Positions 23,130 through 39,181 of a stretch of 64,000 nt of DNA are shown here, piece by piece. A program made the translations under genes and the position numbers. The number at the start of each line of letters is the position of its first letter. The first letter of the stretch is position 1. The notes beneath the pieces were generated by a model, which was not told where the DNA came from, searched no databases, and saw only the letters and a program-made list of their open reading frames with translations. Source of the stretch: Paracoccus aestuariivivens (GTDB lineage: Bacteria; Pseudomonadota; Alphaproteobacteria; Rhodobacterales; Rhodobacteraceae); the NCBI RefSeq assembly GCF_009711225.1, contig NZ_WMIE01000006.1:62001-126000 (forward strand). Reading direction: 5' to 3'.

Positions 23130-23150
23130 CGGCGGCATCATCTGCCGCCG
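23130..23150. promoter_or_regulatory. Palindromic operator GGCGGCA-N5-TGCCGCC (regulon box 1)
   Basis: Eight-base perfect arms (CGGCGGCA and TGCCGCCG) flank TCATC. The box sits between divergent argE and the aldehyde dehydrogenase gene, 103 bases before the latter's ATG. The same arm sequence and spacing recur at 29853-29871, and shortened versions occur at 29941 and 33122. This supports a shared regulator. Confidence 0.6.
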
Positions 23151-23252
23151 GACCCGCCCCCTACGGCACAATCCGCTGCGGACCATGCCGAGCCAAAGAC
23201 AAATGCGGCTCTGACGGGGCTAGCCTTGCCGAAAGAACCAGCGGAAAATTCA

Positions 23253-24716
23253 ATGAGCCTGTCATTCGACCCAGATAGTCTGGACCTGCCCCGCGCGCAT
23301 TTCATCGGCGGTACCTATGTCAAGGACGAGGGCGCGCTTGATCTGTCGCGCCCTTCCGACGCGCAGCCCCTGGGTACGGTTCCGGTCGCGAATGCCGATC
23401 TGGTGGATCGCGCGGTCGAGGTCGCGGCCAAAGCACAACGAGTTTCGGGCTGGGGCGCGTGCCAGCCCCGCGACAGGACAAGGGCCCTGCATCGCTGGGC
23501 CGATCTGATCGAATCCCATGCCACCGAGCTGTCGCAGCTTGAAGCGGTCGCCTCGACGCGGCTGATCAGCCAATTGCCCGCAATCGACGTGGCCGTCACC
23601 GCCGAGCAGATCCGCTTCTTCGCCGAGATGGCCGACAAGGAGGGCGGCGATCTGGTCCCGACCCGCGACGACCAGCTTGGCCTGATCATGGACGAGCCCT
23701 ATGGAGTCGTCGGCGCGATCACGCCGTGGAATTTTCCGATCTCGATGGCGGGATGGAAGCTCGGTCCGGCCCTGGCGGCAGGAAATGCCGTGGTGCTGAA
23801 GCCATCCGAGATGACCCCCTTCGCCACGTTGCGCATGGCCGAACTGTCGGTTCAGGCCGGTATTCCCGCAGGGCTGGTCAATGTCGTCCAGGGCGACGGG
23901 TTTGTGACCGGCACGGCGCTGACCGGTCATCCCGATATCGGCAAGGTCAGCTTCACCGGCTCGACGCTGGCCGGACGGGCGATCATGGAGAACGTGGCGC
24001 GGACCGGCGTCAAGCCGATGACGCTGGAACTGGGCGGCAAAAGCCCGCAGATCGTCTTTGCCGATGCGGATCTGGACTTGGCCGCGCGCTGTATCGCGGG
24101 CAGCATCATGTTCAACGCGGGGCAGGCCTGCGTCGCCGGAAGCCGCGTGATCGTCGAGGCCAAGGTCGCGGATGCGCTTGCCGCAAAGCTGGTGGCCCTG
24201 ATGCAGCCGCAGAATCCCGGCCCGAGCTGGCTGGCCGAAACGGGCTATTCTCCGGCGATCTCGGCGCGTCAGCGCGACCGGATCGACCACATCGTTCAGG
24301 CCGCCATCGTGAACGGAGCCGAGGTCCTGTGCGGCGCCGCCCCCATGGATCTGCCGGGCTATTTCTACCAGCCGACCCTGCTGTTCGGAGTCGGGGCGCG
24401 CAACCCCGCCGTGACCGAGGAAATCTTCGGGCCCGTCCTGACCCTGCAAAGCTTTGCCGATGAAAGCGAGGCGCTGGAACTGGCCGATCATCCGACCTAC
24501 GGGCTGGCGGCGGGGGTCTTTACCCGCGACCTGTCGCGCAGCCTGCGGGTGACGCGCCAGCTTCAGGCGGGGACGGTCTGGGTCAACCGCTATGGCCGCT
24601 CGCGCGATCATATCCTGCCGACAGGTGGTTACAAATCCTCCGGCATCGGCAAGGATCTGGGCCGCGCGGCCTATCACGCCAACCGCCGTTCGAAATCCGT
24701 TCTGATCGACCTCTGA
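23253..24716 (+). CDS. NAD(P)-dependent aldehyde dehydrogenase
   Basis: The 487-residue ALDH has the Rossmann stretch GVVGAITPWNFPISMAGWKLGPALAAGNAVVLKPSE, the catalytic glutamate in LELGGKSPQIVFADADLD and the catalytic cysteine in NAGQACVAGSR. It oxidises an aldehyde, probably a gamma-aminobutyraldehyde- or betaine aldehyde-like product of amine oxidases nearby. The ATG at 23253 is chosen because GCGGAAAA precedes it and upstream residues lack similarity. It heads a three-gene operon with the dehydrogenases at 24727 and 25765. Confidence 0.9.
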   Translation: MSLSFDPDSLDLPRAHFIGGTYVKDEGALDLSRPSDAQPLGTVPVANADLVDRAVEVAAKAQRVSGWGACQPRDRTRALHRWADLIESHATELSQLEAVASTRLISQLPAIDVAVTAEQIRFFAEMADKEGGDLVPTRDDQLGLIMDEPYGVVGAITPWNFPISMAGWKLGPALAAGNAVVLKPSEMTPFATLRMAELSVQAGIPAGLVNVVQGDGFVTGTALTGHPDIGKVSFTGSTLAGRAIMENVARTGVKPMTLELGGKSPQIVFADADLDLAARCIAGSIMFNAGQACVAGSRVIVEAKVADALAAKLVALMQPQNPGPSWLAETGYSPAISARQRDRIDHIVQAAIVNGAEVLCGAAPMDLPGYFYQPTLLFGVGARNPAVTEEIFGPVLTLQSFADESEALELADHPTYGLAAGVFTRDLSRSLRVTRQLQAGTVWVNRYGRSRDHILPTGGYKSSGIGKDLGRAAYHANRRSKSVLIDL

Positions 24717-24726
24717 GGACCATCCC

Positions 24727-25761
24727 ATGACGCACCGCATTGCTTTGATCCCCGGCGACGGGATCGGTACATCTGTTCTGGACGCCGCGATGAAGGTCGC
24801 GGAAAAGGCGGCCCCCGGCCTGCTGTCGGGCGAAACCTTTCCATGGTCCTGCGACCATTACCTGAAAACCGGCCGTATGATGCCCGAAGACGGGATCGAG
24901 ACCCTGCGCGGCTTCGACGCGATTTTCCTAGGCGCGGTCGGCTGGCCCGCGAAGGTGCCCGATGCCGTGTCGCTGCATGGCCTGCTGCTGCCGATCCGCA
25001 AGGCCTTCGTGCAATATGCCAATATCCGTCCCCATCGCCTTTTGCCGGGCGTCGAGGGCCCCTTGCGCAAGCAGGAATTCGACATTCTTTGCATCCGCGA
25101 GAACACTGAGGGCGAATATTCCGGCGCCGGTGGCCGCGTGCATCAGGGCACTGCCGACGAAGTCGCGGTCGAGACGGCGATCTTCACCCGCGCCGGAGTC
25201 GAGCGCATCCTGCGCTTCGGTTTCGAACAGGCGATGGCCCGAAGCAAGCGGCTTGCCTCGGTCACCAAGTCGAACGCGCAGAAATACTCGATGGTGTTCT
25301 GGGACGAGGTGACGCGCGAACTTTCGGTCGAATTCCCCGAGGTCGAGGTCAGTCATTACCATGTCGATGCCATCGCGGCCCGCATGGTGATGGCCCCCGA
25401 GACGCTTGACGTCATCGTGGCCTCGAACTTGTTCGGCGACATCCTGACCGATCTGGGTGCAGCGATCCAGGGGGGCTTGGGCTTTGCGGCCTCGGCCAAT
25501 ATCGACCCGACCCGCAAGGGGCCGTCGATGTTCGAACCGGTGCATGGCTCGGCCCCCGATATCGCGCATCTGGGGATCGCCAATCCGATCGCCGCGATCT
25601 GGTCGTTGGTGATGATGCTGCAACATCTGGGCGAAGGGGCGGTCGCCGCGCGCATCATGCGCTCCGTCGAGGCGACCACCGCACGCGGGATCGGCACCGT
25701 GCCGGGCCGCGACAAGACCGATGACATTACTGCGGCGATCCTGTCCGCATTGGAGGATTAA
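24727..25761 (+). CDS. Tartrate/D-malate dehydrogenase family (isopropylmalate DH-like)
   Basis: The 344-residue protein is a beta-decarboxylating dehydrogenase with IPGDGIG at the N terminus, ENTEGEYSGAGGRVHQG, and a metal-ligand region around VASNLFGDILTDLGAAIQGGLG. The closest group is tartrate/D-malate dehydrogenase (TtuC/DmlA) rather than LeuB. It lies 10 bases after the ALDH and 3 bases before the semialdehyde dehydrogenase. It therefore belongs to this operon and probably acts on a carboxylated intermediate or tartrate-like acid. The substrate is not certain. Confidence 0.85.
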   Translation: MTHRIALIPGDGIGTSVLDAAMKVAEKAAPGLLSGETFPWSCDHYLKTGRMMPEDGIETLRGFDAIFLGAVGWPAKVPDAVSLHGLLLPIRKAFVQYANIRPHRLLPGVEGPLRKQEFDILCIRENTEGEYSGAGGRVHQGTADEVAVETAIFTRAGVERILRFGFEQAMARSKRLASVTKSNAQKYSMVFWDEVTRELSVEFPEVEVSHYHVDAIAARMVMAPETLDVIVASNLFGDILTDLGAAIQGGLGFAASANIDPTRKGPSMFEPVHGSAPDIAHLGIANPIAAIWSLVMMLQHLGEGAVAARIMRSVEATTARGIGTVPGRDKTDDITAAILSALED

Positions 25762-25764
25762 GCG

Positions 25765-27234
25765 ATGAACGTGATGACGAAACCCACCGGACTTGCCGAT
25801 CCCGACCTGTTCCGCGAAGCCGCGCTGATCGGCGGGCAATGGGTACAGGCCACGTCCGGCGCCTCGGTCGAGGTGACCGATCCGGCTACGGGCAAGGTGC
25901 TGGGCCGCGTGCCCGATATCGGCGCCGAGCAGACCCGCGCCGCGATCGACGCCGCCGACCGTGCCTTCCAAAGCTGGCGCAAGCGGCCCCATGCCGAACG
26001 CGCCGCCCTGCTCGAACGCTGGTTCGCCCTGATGGAGGACCACGCCGACGATCTTGCCCTGATCCTGACCCGCGAACAGGGCAAACCGCTGGCCGAGGCC
26101 AAGGGCGAGATCGCCTATGGCGCGTCCTTCGTGAAATGGTTCGCCGAAGAGGCCCGCCGCATCGACGGTTCGGTCATTCCCGCACCCGCAGGCGACCGCC
26201 AGATCGTCGTGATGAAAGAACCGGTCGGGGTTTCGGCCATCATCACGCCTTGGAACTTCCCGAACGCCATGATCACCCGCAAGGTGGCTCCGGCGCTGGC
26301 GGCGGGCTGCACGGTGGTCATCAAACCGTCCGAATTCACGCCGTTCTCGGCCCTTGCGCTAGGGGTTCTGGCCGAACGTGCGGGTATCCCCGAAGGCGTG
26401 GTGAACATCGTGACCGGTATGCCCGCCGCCATCGGGGCCGAACTGACCGCGAACCCGACGGTGCGCAAGCTCAGCTTCACCGGCTCGACGCGAGTGGGCT
26501 CGATCCTGATGGCGCAATGCGCGCCAAGCGTGAAGCGCCTGTCGCTGGAACTGGGCGGCAATGCGCCTTTCATCGTCTTCGACGATGCCGATCTGGACGC
26601 CGCGGTCGAGGGCGCTATTGCCTCGAAATTCCGCAATGGCGGGCAGACCTGCGTCTGTTCGAACCGGATTCTGGTGCAGGCGGGGGTCTATGACGCCTTC
26701 GCGCAAAAGCTGGGTGCGCGGGTCAAGGCCATGCGGGTCGGCCCCGGCACCGAAGCCGGCGTCGAGATCGGCCCGATGATCAACGCCCCCGCAATCGACA
26801 AGATCCGCCGCCATGTCGCCGACGCCCTGTCCAAAGGTGCGACGATTCTGGCCGAGGCGACGGCACCCTCGGGCGATCAATATGCGGCCCCCGTCCTGCT
26901 GGGCGGCGCCACCACCGAGATGGAACTGGCGAGCGAGGAAACCTTCGGTCCCGTCGCGCCGCTGTTCCGCTTCGAAACCGAGGACGAGGCCGTCGCATTG
27001 GCGAACGGGACGCCCTATGGTCTGGCCGCCTATTTCTACACGGAAAGCCACAAGCGGGCGTGGCGGGTCGGGCAGGCGCTGGAATTCGGGATGGTCGGGT
27101 TGAATACCGGCTCGGTTTCGACGACCGTCTCGCCCTTCGGAGGCGTCAAGCAATCCGGTCTTGGCCGCGAAGGCGCACGGGTCGGAATCGACGAATATCT
27201 GGAAACCAAGGCCTTCCACATGGCGGGGCTCTAG
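25765..27234 (+). CDS. gabD: Succinate-semialdehyde dehydrogenase-type ALDH
   Basis: The 489-residue ALDH closely fits the GabD group: GVSAIITPWNFPNAMITRKVAPALAAGCTVVIKPSE, LELGGNAPFIVFDDADLDAAVEGA, and catalytic cysteine in GGQTCVCSNRIL. It should oxidise succinate semialdehyde to succinate with NAD(P), feeding the TCA cycle. It ends the ALDH-dehydrogenase operon and is followed by a strong terminator. Together with the upstream ALDH and the amine oxidases it makes a plausible route from a putrescine/GABA-like compound. That route is inference. Confidence 0.87.
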   Translation: MNVMTKPTGLADPDLFREAALIGGQWVQATSGASVEVTDPATGKVLGRVPDIGAEQTRAAIDAADRAFQSWRKRPHAERAALLERWFALMEDHADDLALILTREQGKPLAEAKGEIAYGASFVKWFAEEARRIDGSVIPAPAGDRQIVVMKEPVGVSAIITPWNFPNAMITRKVAPALAAGCTVVIKPSEFTPFSALALGVLAERAGIPEGVVNIVTGMPAAIGAELTANPTVRKLSFTGSTRVGSILMAQCAPSVKRLSLELGGNAPFIVFDDADLDAAVEGAIASKFRNGGQTCVCSNRILVQAGVYDAFAQKLGARVKAMRVGPGTEAGVEIGPMINAPAIDKIRRHVADALSKGATILAEATAPSGDQYAAPVLLGGATTEMELASEETFGPVAPLFRFETEDEAVALANGTPYGLAAYFYTESHKRAWRVGQALEFGMVGLNTGSVSTTVSPFGGVKQSGLGREGARVGIDEYLETKAFHMAGL

Positions 27235-27266
27235 GTTCCGCGCGGCAGGAACGGGGGAACCCCGTC

Positions 27267-27299
27267 GCCCTGCCGCCCCCTCGATGGGGGTGGCAGGGC
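27267..27299 (+). terminator. Plus-strand intrinsic terminator after gabD
   Basis: A fourteen-pair stem (27267-27280 with 27286-27299, one G-U pair) with loop TCGAT ends 65 bases after the gabD stop and is followed by TATTT. It faces a second stem with the same loop at 27325-27355. Confidence 0.7.
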
Positions 27300-27324
27300 G
27301 TATTTGCCGCAGGCCGAAAAACAA

Positions 27325-27355
27325 CAGGGGGCGCCGGTCGATCCGGCGCCCCCTG
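27325..27355 (-). terminator. Minus-strand intrinsic terminator after the cupin gene
   Basis: A thirteen-pair perfect stem (27325-27337 with 27343-27355) has loop TCGAT. On the minus strand it is followed by TGTTGTTTTT, a good T-rich tail. It ends the cupin-oxidoreductase-HAD transcript. Confidence 0.85.
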
Positions 27356-27376
27356 CACTTTACGCGAACCGCTGGC

Positions 27377-27733
27377 TTACTCGATCACGACATAGATCTT
27401 GCGGATCGTCTCGATGGTCTTCCAGACGCCGACGAAGCCCGGCTTCATCACGAAGCTGTCGCCCTTGCGATAGGTCACCGTGCCCTTGCCCACTTCCGAC
27501 AATTCGACCACGCCTTCGAGGATGTGGCAGAACTCGTAGATCTCGCCCTTGATCGAATGGGTCTCGCCGGGCGTCGCCTCCCAGATACCGGTCTTGACGC
27601 GGCCGCTCTTGCCCTCGTCAAAGGCCCAGGTCGTGAAAGAGGGGTCGCCCGCGATCAGCCGCTCCGGTCCCGGTTTCGCAAATTTCGGTTCCGGCAGGTT
27701 TTCCGGGTCGATCTTGATCAGAAGTTCAGTCAT
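27377..27733 (-). CDS. Cupin-domain protein
   Basis: The 118-residue protein is a single cupin barrel with EIYEFCHILEGVVELSEVGKG and YRKGDSFVMKPGFVGVWKT, close to the Cupin_3/DUF861 group. It probably binds a metal and a small acid, or acts as an isomerase or ureidoglycine-type hydrolase. The ATG at 27733 overlaps the stop of the upstream oxidoreductase (ATGA), indicating translational coupling. It is the last gene of the HAD-oxidoreductase-cupin operon. The precise role is unknown. Confidence 0.8.
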   Translation of the reverse strand: MTELLIKIDPENLPEPKFAKPGPERLIAGDPSFTTWAFDEGKSGRVKTGIWEATPGETHSIKGEIYEFCHILEGVVELSEVGKGTVTYRKGDSFVMKPGFVGVWKTIETIRKIYVVIE

Positions 27734-29007
27734 TGCACCATGTCCTTGGCTTTGTAATAGAGACCGACCAGCGGCAGGAACCACGGTTTCCCCGTATGCA
27801 GGGGAACGGCGTTCCATGGCAGGTCATTGAAGGGATTGCGGTTGATGCGGCCGACGATCAGGTCGGCCATGATCTCGCCCATATGGGTCGCGATCTGCGC
27901 GCCATGGCCGGAATAGCCCATCGCGAAATAGGTTCCGTCCGCCAGACCGGCGCGGGGATAGCGGTCGCGGGTCATATCGACCATCCCGCCCCAGCAGTAG
28001 TCGATCTGCACATCGGCCAGATCGGGAAAGATTCCGGCCAGTGCCTGACGCAGGATCTCGCCGCTTTTCACATCCGACTTCTGGTCCGATGTCGCCGAAA
28101 AACGCGCCCGCCCGCCAAAGATCAGCCGGTTGTCCGGCGCAAGGCGGAAGTAGTTTCCGATATTCATCGAGGTGACGCAGGTCCGGTTCCCCGGCATGAT
28201 GGCTGCGGCCTCGCCCGCGGTTAGCGGGCGGGTCGCGATCAGGAAGCTGCCGACCGGAACGATCCGGCGCCGGAAATACCCGAAAGCCTCGGTCGTATAG
28301 GCCCCCGTCGCCAGCAGGACCCGATCTGCGGTGACCGTGCCGCGCGGCGTGTCCAGCGCCCAGCCGCGCCCCTGCTCGCGCCGCGCCGTCACCGGCGCAT
28401 GTTCATGGATCACCGCGCCGTGCCGCACCGCCGCCTCGGCCAGACCCGAGACAAAGCGCCCCATATGCATCATGGCGCTTTTCTTCTGCAGCATCGCGCC
28501 GTGGAACTGGTCCGAGCCGACCTCGGCCTGCAGATCCGCCCGCGTCAGCAATTCGGTGTCGGGATCGACTTCGGCATGGATGGCCTCGAAATTGCGGGCA
28601 ATCCCTTCCAGATGCTGGGGTTTCGAGGCCAGCTTCAGCTTGCCCGACCTGTGGAAGTCGCAGTCGATGCCCTCTTCGGCCACCAGACGTTCGATGGTGT
28701 CGATTCCGGCGTCGAAGGCGCGATACAGCGCGCGGGCCTTCTCGGCACCGAATTCGGCGCGGGCGGCCAGATAGCTATGGGCGATCCCGTTGTTCAGATG
28801 CCCGCCATTGCGGCCGGAGGCCCCGAATCCCACGGTCTGCGCCTCGAGGACCACGACCGAACGCCCCTCCAGCGCCAGCTTGCGCGCCGCACCAAGTCCG
28901 GTGAAGCCCGCACCGATGACCGCGACATCGTAATGCCCCGCCACCGGCTCCGTCGCGCCCCCCGAAAAGGGGGCGGCGGTATCGTGCCAATATGAGACGA
29001 ACTTCAT
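27730..29007 (-). CDS. DAO-family FAD-dependent amine oxidoreductase (PuuB-like)
   Basis: The 425-residue flavoenzyme has VAVIGAGFTGLGAARKLALEG, then the GASGRNGG motif of the gamma-glutamylputrescine oxidase (PuuB/OrdL) family. Its C-terminal FAD region contains YFAMGYSGHGAQIATHMG. It should oxidise a secondary amine or N-acylated amine to an aldehyde or imine with H2O2 or reduced acceptor. It follows the HAD gene by 5 bases and overlaps the cupin gene. A close paralogue is at 46215-47516, again beside a HAD gene. Confidence 0.88.
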   Translation of the reverse strand: MKFVSYWHDTAAPFSGGATEPVAGHYDVAVIGAGFTGLGAARKLALEGRSVVVLEAQTVGFGASGRNGGHLNNGIAHSYLAARAEFGAEKARALYRAFDAGIDTIERLVAEEGIDCDFHRSGKLKLASKPQHLEGIARNFEAIHAEVDPDTELLTRADLQAEVGSDQFHGAMLQKKSAMMHMGRFVSGLAEAAVRHGAVIHEHAPVTARREQGRGWALDTPRGTVTADRVLLATGAYTTEAFGYFRRRIVPVGSFLIATRPLTAGEAAAIMPGNRTCVTSMNIGNYFRLAPDNRLIFGGRARFSATSDQKSDVKSGEILRQALAGIFPDLADVQIDYCWGGMVDMTRDRYPRAGLADGTYFAMGYSGHGAQIATHMGEIMADLIVGRINRNPFNDLPWNAVPLHTGKPWFLPLVGLYYKAKDMVQ

Positions 29008-29012
29008 CGCCC

Positions 29013-29681
29013 TCAGATCCCGAAGACGCCCGGCAGGCCACCGATATCGGCGATTTCGGTATAGCCGTAATAGGGATTGGCCGGTTCGTGGCGGCGATTG
29101 ACCCAGACCTTGGACGTAATGCCCAGATCATGCGCGGTCATCAGGTCATAGCGGAACGAGGACGAGACATGGGTGATGTCCGCGGGGCCGCAACGCAGCA
29201 CGTCCAGCATATATTCGAAACCGCGCATCTGCGGCTTGTAGGCACCGGTCTCCTCGGCGGTGATGACCTTGTAGAAGGGCGCGCCCAGTTTCTCGACATT
29301 CGAGGGGATCTGCGATTTCATCGCGTTCGACAGGATCACCAGCGGGATTTCTTTGGCCAGCTTGGCCAGACCCGCCGGAACATCCGCATGCGGACCCCAG
29401 GTCGGGACTTCGTCATAGACGCGCTGCGCGTCCTCGTCGCGGAAAGTCACGCCATTGGCTTTGCAGGTCCGCTCGAGCGAGTTGTGAACGATCTCGGCAT
29501 AAGGCTTCCAGGCGCCCAGAACCTCGTCAAGACGGTAGGCCGCAAAGTTCTTGATGAACTGCGTCATGGCGGCCTCATCCAGCGTCGCGCCATAGATGCG
29601 GCGCGCGGCACCGGCCATGTCGAAATTGGTCAGCGTGCCATAGCAGTCGAAGGTTACGTATTTCGGGCGAAACGGGGCCAT
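29013..29681 (-). CDS. HAD type II (haloacid dehalogenase-like) hydrolase
   Basis: The 222-residue HAD has motif I VTFDCYGTLTNFD with the nucleophilic aspartate, ILSNAMKS, a lysine in ETGAYKPQMRGFEY, and HVSSSFRYDLM. The DCYGTL motif fits L-2-haloacid dehalogenases, but the expected SSNAxD segment is changed to SSSFRYD, so true dehalogenation is doubtful. It heads the operon HAD-oxidoreductase-cupin. The divergent acetyltransferase shares its control region. The substrate is probably a product or intermediate of the amine oxidase. That is inference. Confidence 0.82.
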   Translation of the reverse strand: MAPFRPKYVTFDCYGTLTNFDMAGAARRIYGATLDEAAMTQFIKNFAAYRLDEVLGAWKPYAEIVHNSLERTCKANGVTFRDEDAQRVYDEVPTWGPHADVPAGLAKLAKEIPLVILSNAMKSQIPSNVEKLGAPFYKVITAEETGAYKPQMRGFEYMLDVLRCGPADITHVSSSFRYDLMTAHDLGITSKVWVNRRHEPANPYYGYTEIADIGGLPGVFGI

Positions 29682-29852: not shown

Positions 29853-29871
29853 GGCGGCAGAATATGCCGCC
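29853..29871. promoter_or_regulatory. Palindromic operator GGCGGCA-N5-TGCCGCC (regulon box 2)
   Basis: GGCGGCA (29853-29859), GAATA and TGCCGCC (29865-29871) form a perfect dyad. Arms and spacer length are identical to box 1 at 23130-23150, 6.7 kb away. It lies between the HAD-oxidoreductase-cupin operon and the GNAT-aminotransferase operon. Confidence 0.6.
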
Positions 29872-29940: not shown

Positions 29941-29955
29941 CGGCATGATATGCCG
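29941..29955. promoter_or_regulatory. Palindromic operator CGGCA-N5-TGCCG (regulon box 3)
   Basis: CGGCA-TGATA-TGCCG is a shorter version of the regulon dyad, ending 19 bases before the ATG at 29975. A bound protein here would overlap the promoter or leader of the GNAT gene, consistent with repression. Confidence 0.55.
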
Positions 29956-29974: not shown

Positions 29975-30790
29975 ATGACCCAGACCCTGACCTTCCAGCC
30001 TTTCGGCCCCGAACATCTGGACGGCGCGTTGCGCCTGTCCGAACAGGCGCGCTGGCCGCATCGACGCGACGACTGGGCGTTGGTCGCGGCCATCAGCAAG
30101 GGCGTCGTGGCCCTTGAGGACGACCGGATCGTCGCGACGGCCCTTGCCACGCCTTTCGGTGACGCCGCGATGGCGAACATGATCATCGTCGATGAATCCA
30201 TGCGCGGACGGGGCCTTGGCCGCGAGATCATGCTGCGGGCGATGGATTGCGCCACACCGGGCCAATGGCGGCTGGTTGCGACGCAATCGGGGCTGCCGCT
30301 TTACGAGAAGCTCGGTTTCTCGGCCTGCGGCATGGTGCATCAGCGTCAGGGCCATCTGCTGGCCGATTGCGTTGCGACACAGGCCCGCCCCGCCCTTGCC
30401 GCAGACCTTGACGCGATCCGGCAGATGGACCGCGAGGCGACGCAGGCGGATCGCTCGGGTCTGATCGACCTTCTGGCCGCGCGGGGTCAACTGGCGATCA
30501 TCGAGGGCAAGGGTTACGCCGCGATCCGCCCCTTTGGCCGTGGCCATGTCGTCGGTCCGGTGATCGCGGATGATGCGGAAACCGCGCGCGATCTGCTGTC
30601 GCAGCTTTTCGCCGGTCGCCGTGGCGCGTTCTTGCGTGTCGATACCGCCGACCTTACCGGACTCGAGGACTGGCTTGCCGGTCTGGGGCTGGTCGAGGTG
30701 GATCGCGGTATCGCGATGCGGCGCGGCGGGCTTCCCGAAAACAAGGGGCGCTTCATGCGCTTCGCTCTGGCCGCACAGGCCCTTGGCTGA
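29975..30790 (+). CDS. GNAT family N-acetyltransferase, tandem-domain type
   Basis: The 271-residue protein has an N-terminal GNAT domain with the acetyl-CoA loop RGRGLGREIMLRAMD. A second GNAT-like domain (Acetyltransf_18 type, about residues 140-271) follows with FGRGHVVGPVIADD. It probably acetylates an amine or amino acid. GAGG precedes the ATG at 29975. It is 14 bases before the aminotransferase gene, so it is likely in the same operon. A paralogue of the same layout is at 40612-41478, on the other side of the transporter block. Confidence 0.82.
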   Translation: MTQTLTFQPFGPEHLDGALRLSEQARWPHRRDDWALVAAISKGVVALEDDRIVATALATPFGDAAMANMIIVDESMRGRGLGREIMLRAMDCATPGQWRLVATQSGLPLYEKLGFSACGMVHQRQGHLLADCVATQARPALAADLDAIRQMDREATQADRSGLIDLLAARGQLAIIEGKGYAAIRPFGRGHVVGPVIADDAETARDLLSQLFAGRRGAFLRVDTADLTGLEDWLAGLGLVEVDRGIAMRRGGLPENKGRFMRFALAAQALG

Positions 30791-32181: not shown

Positions 32182-33095
32182 TGGCGGTCCTGTTCCTGTC
32201 GACTCCTGCACGGGCCGAGGTCTTTCGTCAGGCCTTTGCCCGCGCCCTGCCGGACATCGCCTTTCACTTCGGCGAAGCGCCGGACCCGCAGGACATCCGC
32301 TGGATCGTCACCTGGACCGCGCCCGAGGATCTGGCGACGCGCTATCCGAATCTGCGGCTGGTCTTCTCGATCGGAGCCGGAGTCGACCAGTTCGACATGA
32401 GCCGCATTCCCGCGCATGTCAGCATTGTCAGGATGCTCGATCCGGGCATCGCGGCGCAGATGGGGGAATATGCGACCATGGCGACCTTGGCCATGCATCG
32501 CGACCTGCCCCTGTATCTGGCGCAACAGCGCAAGGGCGAATGGCGGGCGGGCGACAACCTGCCCGCCGCGCAACGGCGTGTCGGTGTCATGGGGCTGGGC
32601 CAGCTCGGGTCGCTGGTGATCGAACGGCTGAAGCCCTTCGGCTTCGATCTGGCGGGTTACAGCCGCTCGCCGCGCCGGATCGAGGGGGTCGAGTGCTTTA
32701 CCGACCTGTCCGCGTTTCTGGCCCGCAGCGATATCCTGCTGTGCCTTCTGCCGCTGACCGGAGAAACGCAGGGCATCCTGAATGCCGACCTGTTCGCGCA
32801 GCTTCCGCAAGGTGCGCGACTGGTCCATCTGGGACGCGGCAAGCAACTGGTGGCGCAGGATCTGCTTGATGCGCTCGAATCCGGTCGGCTGGCCAGCGCC
32901 ATGCTGGACGTGACCGACCCCGAGCCTTTGCCTGCGGATGACCCGCTTTGGCACCATCCCCGCGTGATCGTTACTCCCCATATCGCCAGCCAGACCAGCG
33001 CGATCGAAGGTGCTGCGCATGTCGTGGCAGGGGTCCGCGCCGACCTGTCCGGACAGGACATCCCCGGCCTGATCGACCGGACACGGGGGTACTGA
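32181..33095 (+). CDS. ghrA: Glyoxylate/hydroxypyruvate reductase A-type dehydrogenase
   Basis: The 304-residue D-2-hydroxyacid dehydrogenase has the Rossmann motif VGVMGLGQLGSLVIE, a catalytic region LLCLLPLTGETQGILN, and the conserved TPHIAS histidine near the C terminus. It reduces glyoxylate, hydroxypyruvate or a similar 2-oxo acid with NAD(P)H. Because it is coupled to the aminotransferase, it may dispose of the 2-oxo acid produced there. It is the last gene of the GNAT-aminotransferase operon. Confidence 0.88.
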   Translation: MAVLFLSTPARAEVFRQAFARALPDIAFHFGEAPDPQDIRWIVTWTAPEDLATRYPNLRLVFSIGAGVDQFDMSRIPAHVSIVRMLDPGIAAQMGEYATMATLAMHRDLPLYLAQQRKGEWRAGDNLPAAQRRVGVMGLGQLGSLVIERLKPFGFDLAGYSRSPRRIEGVECFTDLSAFLARSDILLCLLPLTGETQGILNADLFAQLPQGARLVHLGRGKQLVAQDLLDALESGRLASAMLDVTDPEPLPADDPLWHHPRVIVTPHIASQTSAIEGAAHVVAGVRADLSGQDIPGLIDRTRGY

Positions 33096-33434
33096 CGCGA
33101 TGCCACGGCGTCACGGCAATTCAGCATAATATGCCGTGACATTCACAAAATCGACGCATCCGCCCCGCGATTTCCGGCCATTCTGTCCCGAATGGTCAGG
33201 TCTGCAAGGGCTCGACTACAAGATCCGGCGAAAGATCGGATCAGAATATTCCGGCAGATCGTGCTGCCAACAGGGAAGAATGCATCCGGCCAATGCCGGC
33301 CCGAATGCAAGATACGCTCTGTGAACCAGCATACCCTGTCGCGGTCCGAGCGGACCCGCCCGCCTTTGCGGGTCCAAGCATTGCCCGCAAGGGCGAACCA
33401 TCAGTGCGCAAGCGCGCAAGAACAGGGAATTAGG
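33096..33434 (+). promoter_or_regulatory. Leader and control region of the dipeptide-type ABC operon
   Basis: This 339-base gap contains a regulon box with larger flanking arms (33111-33139) and a small stem (33343-33356). A seven-pair stem (33366-33372 with 33384-33390) lies 45 bases before the ATG. These could affect leader folding. No RNA gene is recognisable. An in-frame extension of the binding protein into this region lacks family similarity. Confidence 0.45.
33111..33139. promoter_or_regulatory. Regulon box 4 nested in a longer inverted repeat
   Basis: The inner CAGCA-TAATA-TGCCG (33122-33136) is box-like with one mismatch in the left arm. The outer TCACGGCA (33111-33118) and TGCCGTGA (33132-33139) are exact reverse complements sharing the right arm. 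The site begins 16 bases after ghrA and lies about 300 bases before the ABC operon start. Confidence 0.5.
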
Positions 33435-35048
33435 ATGAGCAATACCGGCATCACCAACTGGACCCGCTCGGATGACGCGATGGTCGAACATGCCATGCGC
33501 CGAGGCGCCAGCCGTCGCGATCTGCTGCGCATGTTTCTTGCCGGAGGCATCAGCCTTGCCGCAGGCAGCACCATTCTGGGCCGCGCCGGAGCCGCGCTGG
33601 CCGCGACTCCGGTCAAGGGCGGGCATCTGATCGGCGCAAGCTGGGCCTCCTCGACCGCGGACACGCTTGATCCCGCCAAGGCATCGCAGGCGACGGATTA
33701 CGTCCGCTGCTGCGCGCTGTACAACCGCCTGACCTTCCTGAACGGTCAGGGCGAGGTGCAGATGGAACTGGCCGACAGCGTCGAATCCTCGGATGCGAAA
33801 GTCTGGACGGTGAAGCTGAAGACGGGCGTGACCTTCCATGACGGCAAGACCCTGACCGCCGATGACGTCGTCTTCTCGCTGATGCGTCACCTTGACGAAA
33901 GCGTCGGCTCCAAGGTCAACGCGATGGCCAAGCAATTGTCCGAGGTGAAGGCGGTCGATCCGGCGACGGTCCAGATCACCCTGTCCGCGCCGAATGCCGA
34001 CCTGCCCGCCATCCTTGCCATGCACCATTTCATGATCGTGGCCGATGGCACGACCGATTTCTCCAAGGGCAACGGCACGGGTTCCTTCGCGCTGGAAAGC
34101 TTCGAGCCGGGCGTGAAATCGCTGATGAAGCGCAACGAGAACTACTTCAAGCCGGGCGGCGCGCATGTCGACAGCTTCGAATATTTCGCCATTCCCGACG
34201 ACACCGCGCGGGTGAACGCGCTGATCTCGGGGGATATCCATCTGGCGGCGTCCATCAAGCCGCAAGCGCTGCGCCTGATCGAGGCCGCAGGCAATATCGA
34301 CGTGGTGCAGAACACCGCCGGAAACTACACCAATTTCAACATGCGGCTGGATATGTCGCCGGGCGACAAGGCCGGTTTCGCCGAGGGCATGAAATACCTG
34401 TTCGACCGCGAATTGATCACGAAATCCATCGCCCGTGGCCGCGCGGTGATCGCCAATGACCAGCCGGTATCGCCCTCGAACAAATACCACAATGCCGAGC
34501 TGAAGGCCCGCGAGCACGACCCCGAACGCGCCAAGGCGCTGTTCCAGAAGGCGGGACTGCTGGGCCAGACGATCCCGATCGTCGCCTCGGACGCCGCCAC
34601 GTCCTCGGTCGAGATGGCCACGCTGTTGCAGCAGGCCGGTTCGCAGATCGGCATGAAATTCGACATCCAGCGCGTGCCGTCGGATGGCTACTGGTCGAAA
34701 TACTGGCTTCAGGCTCCGGCGCATTTCGGCAATATCAACCCGCGTCCGACGCCCGACATCCTGTTCTCGCTGCTCTACACCTCGGATGCGCCGTGGAACG
34801 AAAGCCAGTTCAAATCCGAGAAATTCGACAAGCTGGTGCATGAGGCCCGCGGCGAACTGAACGAGACGCGCCGCAAGGAAATCTATGACGAATGTCAGGT
34901 GATCGTCTCGAACGAGGCCGCGACCGCGATCCCCGTCTGGCTGTCGGACATGGAGGCCAAGACCAACAAGCTTCAGGGGCTGGAAACCAACCCGCTGGGC
35001 GGCCAGATGGGCTACGCCATGGCCGAATACGTCTGGCTGGAAGCCTGA
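33435..35048 (+). CDS. Dipeptide/oligopeptide-type ABC substrate-binding protein (Tat signal)
   Basis: The 537-residue family 5 binding protein has an unusual N terminus. It contains SRRDLLRMFLAGGISLAAGS, a twin-arginine-like export signal, ending near AALAA. The mature part has LDPAKASQATDYVRCCALYNRLTFLNGQGE and VKLKTGVTFHDGKTLTADDVVFSL, typical of DppA/OppA-like proteins. It captures a peptide or amine conjugate in the periplasm. TTAGG precedes the ATG at 33435. It heads a four-gene transporter operon (SBP, two permeases, fused ATPase). Confidence 0.9.
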   Translation: MSNTGITNWTRSDDAMVEHAMRRGASRRDLLRMFLAGGISLAAGSTILGRAGAALAATPVKGGHLIGASWASSTADTLDPAKASQATDYVRCCALYNRLTFLNGQGEVQMELADSVESSDAKVWTVKLKTGVTFHDGKTLTADDVVFSLMRHLDESVGSKVNAMAKQLSEVKAVDPATVQITLSAPNADLPAILAMHHFMIVADGTTDFSKGNGTGSFALESFEPGVKSLMKRNENYFKPGGAHVDSFEYFAIPDDTARVNALISGDIHLAASIKPQALRLIEAAGNIDVVQNTAGNYTNFNMRLDMSPGDKAGFAEGMKYLFDRELITKSIARGRAVIANDQPVSPSNKYHNAELKAREHDPERAKALFQKAGLLGQTIPIVASDAATSSVEMATLLQQAGSQIGMKFDIQRVPSDGYWSKYWLQAPAHFGNINPRPTPDILFSLLYTSDAPWNESQFKSEKFDKLVHEARGELNETRRKEIYDECQVIVSNEAATAIPVWLSDMEAKTNKLQGLETNPLGGQMGYAMAEYVWLEA

Positions 35049-35058
35049 TCGCTGCTTC

Positions 35059-35082
35059 GGGGGCGGTTGCTGCCGCCCCCGC
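35059..35082 (+). terminator. Stem-loop after the ABC binding-protein gene
   Basis: A nine-pair perfect GC stem (35059-35067 with 35074-35082) with a six-base loop stands 10 bases after the stop. There is no T-run. It probably stabilises the binding-protein mRNA and dampens read-through to the permease genes. Confidence 0.5.
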
Positions 35083-35103
35083 CCTTCCCTGAAAGGTTCC
35101 TGA

Positions 35104-36054
35104 ATGAGTTCACCCATCCCCAGACTGGTGCTAGGCCGCCTCGGCATTGCCGCCATCACGCTGCTGATCGTCTCGGTCGTGGTTTTCGGCGCGACGCAGA
35201 TGCTGCCCGGAGACGTCGCCGAGATCCTGCTGGGCCAATCCGCGACCCCCGAGGCCGTGGCCGGACTGCGCAAGGCCATGAATCTGGATCAGCCCGCGAT
35301 CATGCAATATGGCAGCTGGCTCTGGGGATTGCTGCGGGGCGATCTGGGGACGTCCTATGCCAACAGCATGCCGGTGGCGGACCTGATCGGCGGTCGGCTG
35401 GTGAACACGCTGCGGCTGGGTGCGGTCACGGCCGCGATCGCGGTGCCTCTGGCGCTGTCGCTGGGGATCGCCACGGCGATGTATCGCGGCACGGCTTTTG
35501 ACCGGGCGGTGAACGCCTGCATCATCGCGGTGATCTCGGTTCCGGAATTCATGATCGCGACATTGGCCGTTCTGGTCTTCGCGGTATGGCTGAAATGGCT
35601 GCCCGCCCTGTCGGTCAACAGCGACATCGACAGCATCACCCAGATGCTGCGGGTCTTTGCCATGCCGGTCATCACCCTGCTATGCGTGATCTGCGCCCAG
35701 ATGATCCGCATGACCCGCGCGGCGATGATCAGCGTGCTGGACAGCCCCTATGTCGAGATGGCCCTGCTCAAGGGCGCATCGCGCTCGCGCATGGTGCTGC
35801 GTCACGCCCTGCCCAACGCGGTCGGCCCGATCGTCAATGCCGTGGCCCTGTCGCTGTCCTATTTGGTCGGCGGCGTCATCATTGTCGAGACAGTCTTCAA
35901 CTACCCCGGAATCGCGCGGTTGATGGTGGATTCGGTCGCCACGCGCGACCTGCCGCTGATCCAGGGCTGCGCCATGATCTTCTGTATCGGATACCTGATC
36001 CTGATCACGGTTGCCGACCTGATCGCCATTCTCTCGAACCCGAGGCTTCGCTAG
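35104..36054 (+). CDS. Dipeptide-type ABC permease (DppB family)
   Basis: The 316-residue inner-membrane protein has about six helices and the coupling motif LDSPYVEMALLKGASRSRMVLRHALPNAVGP. An N-terminal segment reads RLGIAAITLLIVSVVVFGATQMLPGD, matching the DppB/OppB family. It forms the pore with the DppC-like permease directly downstream (2-base gap). Nothing unusual is visible. Confidence 0.92.
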   Translation: MSSPIPRLVLGRLGIAAITLLIVSVVVFGATQMLPGDVAEILLGQSATPEAVAGLRKAMNLDQPAIMQYGSWLWGLLRGDLGTSYANSMPVADLIGGRLVNTLRLGAVTAAIAVPLALSLGIATAMYRGTAFDRAVNACIIAVISVPEFMIATLAVLVFAVWLKWLPALSVNSDIDSITQMLRVFAMPVITLLCVICAQMIRMTRAAMISVLDSPYVEMALLKGASRSRMVLRHALPNAVGPIVNAVALSLSYLVGGVIIVETVFNYPGIARLMVDSVATRDLPLIQGCAMIFCIGYLILITVADLIAILSNPRLR

Positions 36055-36056
36055 TC

Positions 36057-36899
36057 ATGGCCGTTTCCTTTCCCACCCCCCGCCGCCTTGGCTACCGCCT
36101 GAACTGGACCGGAGCCCTTGCCGCGCTGGTCGTGCTGTTCTGGGCGCTGACCGCGATCATCGGCCCGTGGTTCATGCCCCATGACCCCGGCGAGATCGTC
36201 GATTTCGATTTCTTCGGCCCGATCACGGATCAACTGTGGCTGGGCTCGGACTATCTGGGCCGCGATATGTTCTCGCGCATCCTGATGGGCGCGCGCTATA
36301 CGGTCGGGATCTCGCTTGCGGCGGTCGTGCTGGCCTGCGCCTCGGGGGTGATCCTTGGCATGACGGCGGCGGTCAGCGGCGGCTGGTTCGACACGGTCCT
36401 GAGCCGTCTGTTCGACGCGCTGAACTCGATCCCGTCGAAACTGTTCGGGCTGGTCATGGTCGCGGCGGTAGGATCGTCGATTCCCGTCCTGATCCTTGTG
36501 CTTGCGGTCATCTACCTGCCCGGAGCCTTCCGCTTTGCCCGTGCGCTGGCCGTCAACATCAACACGATGGATTACGTCACCGTTGCCCGTGCCCGTGGCG
36601 AGCGCACCCCCTATCTGATCATGAACGAGATCCTGCCCAACATGACCGGACCGGTGCTGGCCGATGTCGGGCTGCGCTTTGTCTTCATCGTGCTGTTGCT
36701 GTCGGGTCTGTCGTTTCTGGGGCTGGGCGTGCAGCCGCCGTATGCGGACTGGGGCAGCCTTGTGCGCGAGAATATCGGCGGTCTGCCCTTTGCCGCTCCG
36801 GCAGTGATCATGCCCAGCCTTGCCATCGCCACCCTGACCATCAGCGTCAACCTGCTGATCGACAACCTGCCCACCAAGATCCGCGACCGGAGCGAATGA
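36057..36899 (+). CDS. Dipeptide-type ABC permease (DppC family)
   Basis: The 280-residue permease has DQLWLGSDYLGRDMFSRILMGARYTVGIS and the coupling loop VARARGERTPYLIMNEILPNMTGPVL, with a C-terminal QPPYADWGSLV as in DppC/OppC. The ATG at 36057 follows the DppB-like stop by 2 bases. Its TGA overlaps the start of the fused ATPase gene, indicating coupling. Confidence 0.92.
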   Translation: MAVSFPTPRRLGYRLNWTGALAALVVLFWALTAIIGPWFMPHDPGEIVDFDFFGPITDQLWLGSDYLGRDMFSRILMGARYTVGISLAAVVLACASGVILGMTAAVSGGWFDTVLSRLFDALNSIPSKLFGLVMVAAVGSSIPVLILVLAVIYLPGAFRFARALAVNINTMDYVTVARARGERTPYLIMNEILPNMTGPVLADVGLRFVFIVLLLSGLSFLGLGVQPPYADWGSLVRENIGGLPFAAPAVIMPSLAIATLTISVNLLIDNLPTKIRDRSE

Positions 36900-38539
36900 T
36901 GCAAAACCTTGTCGAAATCCGCGATCTTCGGGTCAAGGCCACCACCGATGCCGGCAATGTTCTTCCCATCATCAAGGGCGTCAGCTTCGACATCGCGCCG
37001 GGCGAGATCGTTGCGCTGATCGGGGAAAGCGGCTCGGGCAAGACCACCATCGCGCTGACCCTGATGGGCCATACCCGCAAAGGCTGCGAGATCACCGGCG
37101 GCGAGATCCTGCTCTCGGGTCAGGATGTCGTCCGCATGACCGAAGCCCAAAGGCAGGCCATGCGCGGGACCGAGGTCGCCTATGTCCCGCAAAGCGCCGC
37201 CGCCGCCTTCAACCCCGCCCTGCGACTGATCGATCAGGTCGTCGAGGTCGCCAAGATCCACGGCACCATGCCGATGGCCGAGGCCCGCGCCAAGGCAATC
37301 GATCTGTTCCGCGCCCTCGCGCTGCCCGACCCCGAAACCATCGGCAACCGCTATCCGCATCAGGTCTCGGGCGGACAGTTGCAACGGCTTTCGGCGGCGA
37401 TGGCCCTGATCGGCGGGCCGAAGCTGGTCATCTTCGACGAACCCACCACGGCGCTGGACGTCACCACCCAGATCGAGGTGCTGCGCGCCTTCAAATCGGT
37501 GATGAAGGAACGCGGCATGGCGGGGGTATATGTCAGCCACGATCTGGCGGTCGTCGCCCAGATCGCCGACCGGATCGTGGTCCTGAAGGGCGGCGAGGTG
37601 CAAGAGATCGGCGCGACCGCGCAGATTCTGCACCACCCCGCGCATCCCTATACGAACGAACTTCTATCCGCCTTCGAACCGCGGACATTCGCGCGCGCAG
37701 CAGATCCGGTCGCAGCCAACGCGCAGGTTCCCGTTCTGGAAGTCTCGCATGTCTTTGCCGGATACGGTCCCTTGGGCGCGGACAGGCTGCCGCACAAGCT
37801 GGTCCTGAAGGATGTCGGCTGCCGTCTGGAAAAGGGCTGCAACCTTGGCGTGATCGGCGAAAGCGGCTCGGGGAAATCGACGCTGGCGCGGGCGATTGCG
37901 GGCCTGCTTCCCCCCGCCAAGGGCAAGGTGCTGCTGAATGGCGAATTGTTGGAACCCGCCTCGGCGCAGCGCTCGAAAGAGGATCTGCGGCGGCTCCAGA
38001 TCGTGTTCCAACTGGCCGATACGGCGCTGAATCCGGCGCGCTCCATCGGCGATATCCTTGGCCGTCCGCTGACCTTCTATCACGGCCTGAAAGGCGCGGC
38101 CCGTCAGGCGCGGATCGCGGAACTGCTGGAAATGGTCCGCCTGCCCCGCACCATGATGCACCGTCTGCCCGCCGAACTGTCGGGCGGCCAGAAACAGCGC
38201 GTCAATCTGGCCCGTGCCTTGGCGGCAAACCCCGAGGTCATCCTGTGCGACGAGATCACCTCGGCGCTGGACACCGTGGTTGCGGCGGCGGTGATCGACC
38301 TGCTCAAGGAACTGCAGCGCGAACTGGACCTGTCCTATGTCTTCATCAGCCACGATCTGTCCACCGTGCAGGCCATCTGCGACGAGGTGATGGTAATGAA
38401 TGGCGGCGAGACGGTCGAAACGCTGCGCGCCCGCGACCTGCCGGACGGCGCGCGCCATCCCTATTCGCGGCTGCTGTTCGATTCCATCCCGCAACTGGAC
38501 ACCGGCTGGCTGGATCGCATCCCTGCCCGCGTCGCCTGA
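36896..38539 (+). CDS. Fused double ABC ATPase for dipeptide-type transport
   Basis: The 547-residue protein contains two complete ATPase cassettes, equivalent to DppD and DppF. The first has Walker A GESGSGKTT, signature VSGGQLQRLSAAMAL and Walker B VIFDEPTTALD. The second has [28 protein letters not shown] and VILCDEITSALD. Both have switch histidines (VSHDL, ISHDL). Two ATGs (36896 and 36899) are possible, and the first overlaps the permease stop. Fusion is common in this class. It powers the four-gene importer. Confidence 0.93.
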   Translation: MMQNLVEIRDLRVKATTDAGNVLPIIKGVSFDIAPGEIVALIGESGSGKTTIALTLMGHTRKGCEITGGEILLSGQDVVRMTEAQRQAMRGTEVAYVPQSAAAAFNPALRLIDQVVEVAKIHGTMPMAEARAKAIDLFRALALPDPETIGNRYPHQVSGGQLQRLSAAMALIGGPKLVIFDEPTTALDVTTQIEVLRAFKSVMKERGMAGVYVSHDLAVVAQIADRIVVLKGGEVQEIGATAQILHHPAHPYTNELLSAFEPRTFARAADPVAANAQVPVLEVSHVFAGYGPLGADRLPHKLVLKDVGCRLEKGCNLGVIGESGSGKSTLARAIAGLLPPAKGKVLLNGELLEPASAQRSKEDLRRLQIVFQLADTALNPARSIGDILGRPLTFYHGLKGAARQARIAELLEMVRLPRTMMHRLPAELSGGQKQRVNLARALAANPEVILCDEITSALDTVVAAAVIDLLKELQRELDLSYVFISHDLSTVQAICDEVMVMNGGETVETLRARDLPDGARHPYSRLLFDSIPQLDTGWLDRIPARVA

Positions 38540-38556
38540 TCCCGCCCCCGAACCAC

Positions 38557-39036
38557 CTAAAGCTTGAAGATATTCTTCAGCGGAAGGTGGTTCTTCACAA
38601 AGGGCGATTTCATCACGACAAAGCTGAAGTATTTGTCGATGCCGATCTCGCGGTCGATCAGCCCCTCCATGATGGCCTGATAATCCGTGATGCCGCCGGT
38701 GACGAATTTCAGCAGATAGTCATAACCGCCCGAGATCAGGTGGCATTCGATGCATTCCTCGACCTTCATCATCGCCTCCTGGAAGCGGGCGAAATCGATC
38801 TGGCGGTGGTTCTTCAGCGTGACCTCGGTAAAGACGGTCAGGGTCGGCCCCAGTCTGGCAAGGTCGATCTGGGCCGAATAGCCCGTGATGAAACCCGCCT
38901 GCTGCAATTTCTTGACCCGCATCAGGCAGGGGCTGGGCGACAGATGGACCAGTTCGGCCAACTCGACATTGGTGATACGGCCATTGCGTTGCAACTCGTG
39001 CAGGATGCGGATGTCGATACGGTCCAGTTTCAACAT
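38557..39036 (-). CDS. Lrp/AsnC family transcriptional regulator
   Basis: The 159-residue protein has an N-terminal helix-turn-helix (LDRIDIRILHELQRNGRITNVELAELVHLSPSPCLMRVKKLQQAGFI). A RAM ligand domain follows, with GGYDYLLKFVTGGITDYQAIMEGLI. The ATG at 39036 is preceded by GAGG. It is convergent with the transporter operon and divergent from the oxidoreductase at 39256. As the only Lrp-type protein in the locus, with family-typical 15-base palindromes at several promoters, it is the best candidate for the regulon described in the findings. Confidence 0.92.
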   Translation of the reverse strand: MLKLDRIDIRILHELQRNGRITNVELAELVHLSPSPCLMRVKKLQQAGFITGYSAQIDLARLGPTLTVFTEVTLKNHRQIDFARFQEAMMKVEECIECHLISGGYDYLLKFVTGGITDYQAIMEGLIDREIGIDKYFSFVVMKSPFVKNHLPLKNIFKL

Positions 39037-39166
39037 GGTGGCCTCGTGAATGCGTGCAAGGACGCTACGCATAAAATTCTGCGACCTCAACCCGATCTAC
39101 CGTCAAAAACGCATCGTCCCTGTCACATTTCTCGGAAAACTAGGCCGCTGTCACAGACCGCCAGTT

Positions 39167-39181
39167 CGGCATAATATTTCA
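39167..39181. promoter_or_regulatory. Half-conserved regulon box (box 5) between Lrp and DAO genes
   Basis: CGGCA-TAATA-TTTCA keeps the left arm and the central TAATA of box 4 (nine bases GCATAATAT are identical), but the right arm is lost. It lies 74 bases before the oxidoreductase ATG and 130 bases before the Lrp start. It may be weak or fortuitous. Confidence 0.3.

Follow-up and report, generated by a model that had tools for sequence, protein, structure and literature searches.

The window analysed here, a 64,000-nucleotide stretch of Paracoccus aestuariivivens DNA (contig NZ_WMIE01000006.1, positions 62,001 to 126,000), contains an uptake-and-catabolism island that is conserved in other genomes, and a palindrome recurs in its promoter regions. 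The palindromes are real, and their conserved core appears to be a 15-bp Lrp-type operator, CNGCATaatATGCNG, near the E. coli Lrp consensus. They are very probably operators of the Lrp/AsnC-family protein encoded in the cluster by lrp, which would act as the local regulator of the island. A sequence-only reading of the window had proposed this link, and cross-genome comparison now makes the predicted connection well supported: the motif is recovered independently, its positions are conserved, sites precede lrp itself in most loci, and regulator and sites co-occur. Motif, positions, conservation and co-occurrence are read directly from the sequences. In general terms, a short mirror-image DNA word is common to several switches of a nutrient-breakdown cluster in many soil and water bacteria.

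The regulon is apparently undescribed, as had been claimed, since no title or abstract start describing it was found in open-licence PMC papers. Local catabolic Lrp/AsnC regulators and Lrp-type operators are known, and the particular regulon is apparently new. Two Lrp/AsnC regulators of R. etli are named in predicted networks, and the motif does not appear in the available parts of that source (PMC11387232).

Palindromes in the window

All five boxes reported by the sequence-only reading are found at the positions it gave, with a spacer of five bases. The sequence 23130-23150, in the divergent gap between argE and the aldehyde dehydrogenase gene aldH, is a perfect 8+5+8 palindrome, and 29853-29871, in the divergent gap between the HAD hydrolase and GNAT acetyltransferase genes, is a perfect 7+5+7 palindrome. 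The box at 29941-29955 is perfect over 5+5+5, the one at 33122-33136, ahead of the ABC transporter operon, contains one mismatch, and 39167-39181, ahead of the FAD-dependent oxidase gene DAO2, is a half copy. The five boxes are all intergenic, as had been stated, if GNAT starts at 29975 (the start of the coding model); with the in-frame ATG at 29945 as alternative start, the third box would lie partly within the gene. Absent from that reading were a fourth exact match to CGGCA-N5-TGCCG, which falls in coding DNA of aldH at 23776-23790, and a two-mismatch copy at 23062-23080, in the same argE/aldH gap as the first box.

The 19-mer GGCGGCA-N5-TGCCGCC occurs twice in the window and in none of 300 second-order Markov copies of it, and the 15-mer CGGCA-N5-TGCCG occurs four times, against a mean of 0.48 and a maximum of 3 in the copies. 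Since the short word alone is unspecific and a palindrome in one genome is suggestive only, the analysis turned to a comparison across genomes, conservation at promoters being the evidence that counts.

A conserved, probable operator of 15 bp

The comparison set consists of the best 80 loci of a longer list from an aminotransferase scan, mostly from Rhizobiales and Rhodobacterales. A palindromic expectation-maximisation search was run on each type of intergenic gap separately, with the window excluded; gaps are named after their flanking genes (AT, aminotransferase; SBP, solute-binding protein; perm1, permease). The palindrome CcGCATaatATGCgG was obtained de novo from 60 deduplicated HAD/GNAT or HAD/AT gaps, and the same palindrome, as CAGCATaatATGCTG, from 46 Lrp/DAO2 gaps, while CagcATAaTATgctG was the second-best solution for nine AT/SBP gaps. 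The same search returned unrelated motifs from the convergent gaps (gabD/DAO1 and ATPase/Lrp) and the operon-internal SBP/perm1 gaps. Cross-recognition was measured with a consensus-seeded matrix trained on one gap type and compared with 300 column-permuted matrices, the gaps not being deduplicated. Mean best scores were 13.7 versus -3.1 for the permuted matrices (standard deviation 2.2), and 14.0 versus 1.4 (standard deviation 1.7), and no permutation among the 300 did as well; the scores of 137 control gaps are close to those of the permuted matrices (44/300 and 33/300 as good).

The window was scored with a matrix built from 104 gaps of other genomes, leaving out the window and its closest relative, locus L046. 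The top four places in the 64 kb, at 33122, 29855, 29941 and 23133, are four boxes of the earlier reading. They are followed by 39185, by the coding places 61525 and 23776, and then by 39067, 33252 and the half copy at 39167. Three intergenic sites scoring at least 12 (the threshold for a site unless stated otherwise) are thereby added to the earlier boxes, namely 39067-39081, 39185-39199 and 33252-33266, and the fifth box, at 39167, is a degenerate copy at a conserved position. The supposed one-mismatch copy at 33122 ranks best, and the GGC arms are seen as a lineage feature around a broader operator. The palindrome is thus common to the boxes, as had been claimed, and the conserved element is CNGCATaatATGCNG rather than GGCGGCA-N5-TGCCGCC. 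The E. coli Lrp consensus yAGhAwATTwTdCTr, as given in the accessible part of PMC5554404, is nearly the same word as the island motif.

Predicted operators and the regulator gene (coordinates in the window; matrix scores):
23064..23078, perhaps a second, weak argE/aldH site; 7.8
23133..23147, operator in the argE/aldH gap, core of 23130-23150; 18.3; counterparts in L046 (12.8) and L155 (18.4)
29855..29869, main operator of the HAD/GNAT divergent gap, core of 29853-29871; 20.0; 116 bp before GNAT, matching other genomes
29941..29955, second HAD/GNAT operator, 86 bp from the first; 19.6; counterparts in L046 and L155, each at a spacing of 85 bp
33122..33136, operator ahead of the ABC operon, highest-scoring site of the window; 24.3; counterparts in L046, L154 and L155
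33252..33266, second ABC-operon operator, 130 bp away from the one at 33122; 12.1; spacing 131 in L046, 130 in L154, 121 in L155
38557..39036, minus strand, lrp, Lrp/AsnC-family regulator of 159 aa; Pfam HTH_AsnC-type and AsnC_trans_reg
39067..39081, operator before lrp, centre 38 bp from the start codon; 13.7; same position in many Lrp/DAO2 gaps
39167..39181, degenerate operator (half copy) about 80 bp before DAO2; 10.5; other Lrp/DAO2 gaps mostly 75-83 bp
39185..39199, second DAO2 operator, centred 64 bp ahead of the start; 15.8

Two other palindromes were set aside. The sequence GATGAAGCC.GGCTTCATC, found de novo in the rhizobial gap before aldH, was rejected as an operator because 13 of 16 gaps checked hold a plus-strand frame of about 117-125 codons as the longest there, which is taken for a cupin gene as in the P. 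denitrificans cluster. The sequence GGGGCGGTT.AACCGCCCC, present in about half of the convergent gabD/DAO1 gaps, is terminator-like.

Position of the sites relative to the genes

The gap types HAD/GNAT, Lrp/DAO2 and HAD/AT were used for training, and their counts are largely in-sample. Sites are present in 49 of 52 HAD/GNAT gaps, nearly all of them 116-135 bp before GNAT (158 in L070, 269 in L047), in 46 of 51 Lrp/DAO2 gaps and in all 15 HAD/AT gaps. The Lrp/DAO2 gaps typically contain one site 26-52 bp before lrp (63 in L116, 98 in L118) and a second one 75-83 bp before DAO2 (92-94 in three loci). The two boxes are mostly 109-114 bp apart, the distances in the window being 100 and 118. These distances cluster, but the loci are related and most values fall at 109-114, and helical phase is therefore not claimed as independent evidence.

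Outside the training set, sites occur in 3/3 argE/GNAT and 5/10 AT/SBP gaps, nine Bradyrhizobium-type loci in which DAO2 is otherwise arranged have a marginal site (12.5-12.9) 81-85 bp before DAO2, and L048, L049 and L051, with lrp in another setting, score 14-18 before lrp. No site reaches 12 in 57 SBP/perm1, 36 gabD/DAO1, 33 ATPase/Lrp, 32 HADH/aldH1, 11 HADH/gabD, 11 gabD/HAD and 10 argE/HADH gaps, and smaller groups of gaps likewise contain none. Coding DNA holds 0.10 sites per kb, and 33 of 671 random 408-bp coding stretches contain one.

Counted by gene, 50 of 69 loci have a site in the 400 bp ahead of lrp, the Bradyrhizobium-type loci being without one. The SBP gene has a site within 400 bp in 6/57 loci and within 1050 bp in 42/57, the latter count carrying less weight because some of its sites are coding; aldH is preceded by a site in 2/46 loci and argE in 4/18. 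Among loci of the same genus, L154 and L155 have sites at the HAD/GNAT and SBP promoters, and L157 at HAD/GNAT and Lrp/DAO2. Among 12 further lrp loci, seven contain a site ahead of lrp, and in six of these seven (L174, L176-L179, L182) there are two boxes separated by 108-111 bp. The gap before lrp holds a site in three of seven family-wide orthologues (L127, L128, L133).

Co-occurrence of regulator and sites

The lrp protein carries an N-terminal AsnC-type helix-turn-helix (HTH) domain and a C-terminal Lrp/AsnC ligand domain (PF13404, PF13412 and PF01037, all over cut-off). An lrp gene with more than 65% identity is linked to the cluster in 70 of 81 loci, window included. Sinorhizobium fredii NGR234 and Paracoccus denitrificans PD1222 are among the strains that possess an orthologue. 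The fetched cluster stretch lacks lrp in 13 genomes, 11 of which carry an orthologue elsewhere; ten of these orthologues (10/12 genomes) are 73-81% identical, and L155 is a further case, with a 93% identical orthologue on another contig. Some orthologues may sit immediately past the end of the fetched sequence or on a contig that is broken; L050 and L069 stop inside the cluster. No lrp orthologue was found at E 1e-30 in genome G031, to which L156 belongs, or in the genome of L084. In L156, where the aminotransferase is present and lrp absent, no site reaches 12, and the L084 stretch has none outside mapped genes. Weak boxes (13-15) occur in L085, L086 and L121.

In L155 (genome G004) a luciferase-family monooxygenase-like frame of about 350 codons (17749-19317) stands in the place of lrp, which lies at the end of the other contig. 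In Rhizobium sophoriradicis (L175) lrp is present in two tandem copies (1501-1974 and 2157-2630), with boxes of 22.5 and 22.6 before a GNAT gene and between the tandem copies.

Extent of the proposed regulon

Genome-wide, the pattern CVGCAKNWNMTGCBG has 51 matches versus 25 for the reversed control, six of them in this locus. Among the 50 matches listed, eight score at least 18; the four in the locus are all intergenic and the four elsewhere all coding. Classification of 15 off-locus places (13 of 45 pattern matches and two others) gave 12 coding and three intergenic ones (C15, C16 and C23), C23 lying downstream of a dadA-like gene. On this evidence the regulon seems to be local, all off-locus places of at least 18 being coding, for one pattern class and with part of the weaker places classified.

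The coding places 23776-23790, in aldH, and 61525-61539, in a frame taken for a MATE-type exporter, were rejected as operators. On the two contigs C15 and C16 (L165, about 2333; L166, about 2586) a gene of roughly 155 codons is present in nearly identical copies, each preceded at 95 bp by one and the same perfect box-like palindrome; possible explanations are off-locus targets or a recent duplication.

Weighing of the evidence

Several observations weigh against the assignment of the boxes to the lrp of the cluster. Genomes contain several Lrp paralogues (five matches at 1e-30 in G357, for example), the island motif resembles the general Lrp-family box, and the loci are not independent, because most are rhizobial relatives. 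No site precedes lrp in five of the 12 further lrp loci (L172, L173, L180, L181, L183), and the 13 Lrp-/DAO2- gaps (mostly Bradyrhizobium), which hold the lrp promoter, are without a site of at least 12, so that autoregulation of lrp is not universal. The Lrp/DAO2 gaps of L066, L075 and L083 lack even a site of at least 9, and of the family-wide orthologues L129, L130 and L132 reach only 10.4-10.6 in the gap before lrp and L131 has none. P. denitrificans PD1222 has weak sites, 9.4 and 9.7 in its Lrp/DAO gap and 14.0 before the transporter operon. In L100, which has lrp, the 350 bp next to each mapped start tested are free of sites of at least 12, and a site of 18 is found 584 bp before the aminotransferase gene. 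The argE/aldH box is found only in three Paracoccus-type loci, namely the window, L046 and L155; L154 and all 32 rhizobial HADH/aldH gaps lack it. Of the set proposed by the sequence-only reading, the HAD/GNAT, ABC and DAO2 boxes are conserved in related loci, and the argE/aldH box is seen only in some Paracoccus.

The boxes could belong to another regulator; the product of the tetR gene at 21207-21887 is one candidate, a second Lrp paralogue a conceivable other. Palindromes are bound by TetR proteins as well, the tetR gene adjoins argE, and the genomes hold several Lrp/AsnC genes. This explanation is nevertheless improbable: lrp is the gene linked to the cluster in the large majority of loci, boxes stand before lrp itself in most of them, and the two box-free clusters sit in genomes without an lrp orthologue. 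At E 1e-20 the tetR gene does not map in any of the 80 loci besides the window (L089 has one short match of 55 residues, 4e-6), and it is not beside argE in L154 and L155; many loci end short of the argE flank, which limits the weight of this absence.

Another rival takes the boxes for palindromes arisen by chance in GC-rich DNA, or for hairpins and terminators without a regulator, and several counts speak for it. The bare 15-mer occurs at 37 places in the 4.56 Mb genome versus 22 for the reversed control, most of them off the locus. In the window, the 19-mer at three mismatches is unenriched (26 versus 20.8 expected; 14/100 shuffles have as many), and palindromes of the same geometry and any sequence are about as common as in simulations (12 versus a mean of 9.5 and a maximum of 15 in 60 simulations). 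As a whole explanation, chance is already contradicted by the gap-type and permutation results and is very improbable: the same sequence recurs at similar positions in divergent and upstream gaps across Rhizobiales and Rhodobacterales, and the convergent gaps hold a different, terminator-like palindrome. Chance may explain the coding places 23776-23790 and 61525-61539. Least credible of all is that the cluster and its AsnC gene form the ectoine-catabolism (eut/doe) system, the regulon of which is already known. Ectoine clusters do combine asnC with a succinate-semialdehyde dehydrogenase and an aminotransferase, and AsnC activates the operon, according to the portion of PMC5924519 available. 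A search of the window's genome for the ectoine hydrolase EutD gave no match over cut-off (best 29.5 bits, cut-off 613), and the ectoine reading was rejected on this ground.

Proposed mechanism

Under the favoured assignment to the cluster's own Lrp, binding, activation, autorepression, wrapping and effector recognition are all predictions. Most likely, an Lrp oligomer would occupy a pair of boxes in each promoter region (in most Lrp/DAO2 gaps the pair is separated by about 110 bp), and the DNA between them would be bent or wrapped by Lrp. The box before lrp would serve to repress lrp. Once a substrate or intermediate binds the Lrp ligand domain, the enzyme genes would be activated from the boxes that precede DAO2 by about 80 bp and GNAT by about 120 bp. 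The predicted targets are the FAD oxidases, the HAD hydrolase, the acetyltransferase, the class III aminotransferase, the D-hydroxyacid dehydrogenase and the ABC transporter, and in this lineage also argE and aldH-ttuC-gabD.

Before DAO2, the hexamer TAGTCT at 39223-39228 is part of a conserved TAnnnT block. Taken as the -10 element, it would put the box centres at 39174 and 39192 at about -61 and -43; the 39074 centre, at a distance of 38 bp from the start codon of lrp, would fall close to the lrp transcription start. Lrp proteins often activate from such positions. The predicted centres would fit activation of DAO2 together with autorepression of lrp. Wrapping of DNA by Lrp proteins is described in the part of PMC5924519 available.

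Gene content and possible substrate of the island

A candidate operator, a candidate regulator and a predicted target list are now at hand for a catabolic island of Rhizobiales and Rhodobacterales. The effector should be the substrate or an intermediate, and a promoter reporter would therefore point directly to what the island degrades. The genes in the window are as follows.

21897..23018, minus strand, argE-like deacylase; TIGR01892 and PRK07522 over cut-off
23253..24716, plus strand, aldehyde dehydrogenase (aldH1); best models BADH and aminobutyraldehyde dehydrogenase, below cut-offs; start from the coding model
24727..25761, plus strand, tartrate dehydrogenase family (ttuC); TIGR02089, 541 bits, cut-off 470
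25765..27234, plus strand, succinate-semialdehyde dehydrogenase family (gabD); TIGR01780, 673 bits, cut-off 646
27730..29007, minus strand, FAD-dependent oxidase (DAO1); closest model in NCBIfam is L-pipecolate oxidase AmaA, with a score far under cut-off
29013..29681, minus strand, HAD type II hydrolase; TIGR01428 over cut-off; 3smv, 2e-20
29975..30790, plus strand, GNAT acetyltransferase; Pfam; start codon from the coding model
30805..32181, plus strand, class III aminotransferase (PRK05965 subfamily); 848 bits, cut-off 729
32181..33095, plus strand, D-2-hydroxyacid dehydrogenase; nearest model GhrA, below cut-off
33435..38539, plus strand, ABC transporter operon with SBP of family 5, two permeases and a fused ATPase; SBP_bac_5, reading frames, synteny; permeases and ATPase named from their own sequences and the P. 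denitrificans annotation
39256..40575, plus strand, FAD-dependent oxidase/deaminase (DAO2); DAO Pfam; L-amino acid deaminase 5hxw, 3e-58

Large parts of the island recur in most loci: DAO1 and HAD divergent from GNAT and the aminotransferase, an SBP-family-5 ABC transporter, and lrp divergent from DAO2; argE, the D-hydroxyacid dehydrogenase, aldH, ttuC and gabD are often present as well. The closest named locus is that of Paracoccus litorisediminis, with a 91% identical aminotransferase. Unlike the window, P. denitrificans (L159, 23679-24386) and G017 (L157, 12564-13163) have a second HAD-family gene, placed between the genes for the D-hydroxyacid dehydrogenase and the transporter. A GMC oxidoreductase and a permease gene adjoin the island in the window (41638-44133); in L084 and L156, without lrp and without boxes, their homologues stand directly with ttuC, gabD, GNAT and the aminotransferase. 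Six genomes from the same family as the window (L134-L139) carry a sister clade of Lrp, 54-56% identical, beside HAD, aminotransferase, gabD, GNAT or argE homologues, with box-like sites in L136 (19.5) and L138 (16.6); strong EutD matches lie there on other contigs or far away.

The amine substrate implied by the name of an amine-catabolism regulon, as used in the sequence-only reading, is established by none of the island's steps, and ectoine is unlikely for the window's genome because no EutD is found over cut-off. The top solved relatives of the HAD protein (3smv, 8ywo, 9v14) are named (S)-2-haloacid dehalogenase or L-azetidine-2-carboxylate hydrolase. It is conceivable, if doubtful, that a cyclic imino acid, for example the plant toxin L-azetidine-2-carboxylate, is degraded by the island as an inducible pathway, with Lrp as the sensor acting through the paired boxes. 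The HAD protein would then open the ring to 4-amino-2-hydroxybutyrate, the aminotransferase and GabD would lead on to malate, and TtuC to pyruvate, so that these three enzymes would fit the remaining azetidine steps. Some members of the tartrate dehydrogenase family act on D-malate. The known route, in the available part of PMC8016842, runs via 2-hydroxy-4-aminobutyrate and then transamination.

Relation to known systems

The local Lrp regulators BkdR, PutR and DadR likewise combine a divergent arrangement with autoregulation and activation of neighbouring catabolic genes; they serve other substrates and gene sets than the island and are likened to it by description only.

The L-azetidine-2-carboxylate pathway (AC-hydrolase of Pseudomonas, AzhA of Aspergillus) pairs a HAD hydrolase with an accessory acetyltransferase, like the island (PMC8016842, available part), and the island HAD is only a distant relative (3smv, E 2e-20). 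The ectoine clusters also have a cluster-linked AsnC/Lrp protein (AsnC/DoeX) beside a class III aminotransferase and a succinate-semialdehyde dehydrogenase, and there it is an activator required for growth on ectoine, as far as the parts available of PMC5924519 and PMC13188858 report. Unlike these clusters, the island is without ectoine hydrolase and has instead an SBP-family-5 transporter and FAD oxidases. The parts available of these sources give no box sequence for the ectoine AsnC.

E. coli Lrp belongs to the same family as the island protein and is its best relative in the PDB (2gqq, 1e-33); the HTH aligns closely, and the recognition regions are very similar (LSPSPCLMRVKKLQ versus LSPTPCLERVRRLE). 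The island protein scores 134.1 bits against the equivalog model for the E. coli-type global Lrp, below its cut-off of 233 (NCBIfam NF008370). The E. coli operator is the same 15-bp palindrome with an A/T centre (PMC5554404, part available), and the island matrix departs from it in having A, C or G at position 2 and nearly always C at position 4. Unlike the global E. coli Lrp, the island Lrp is tied to one catabolic island.

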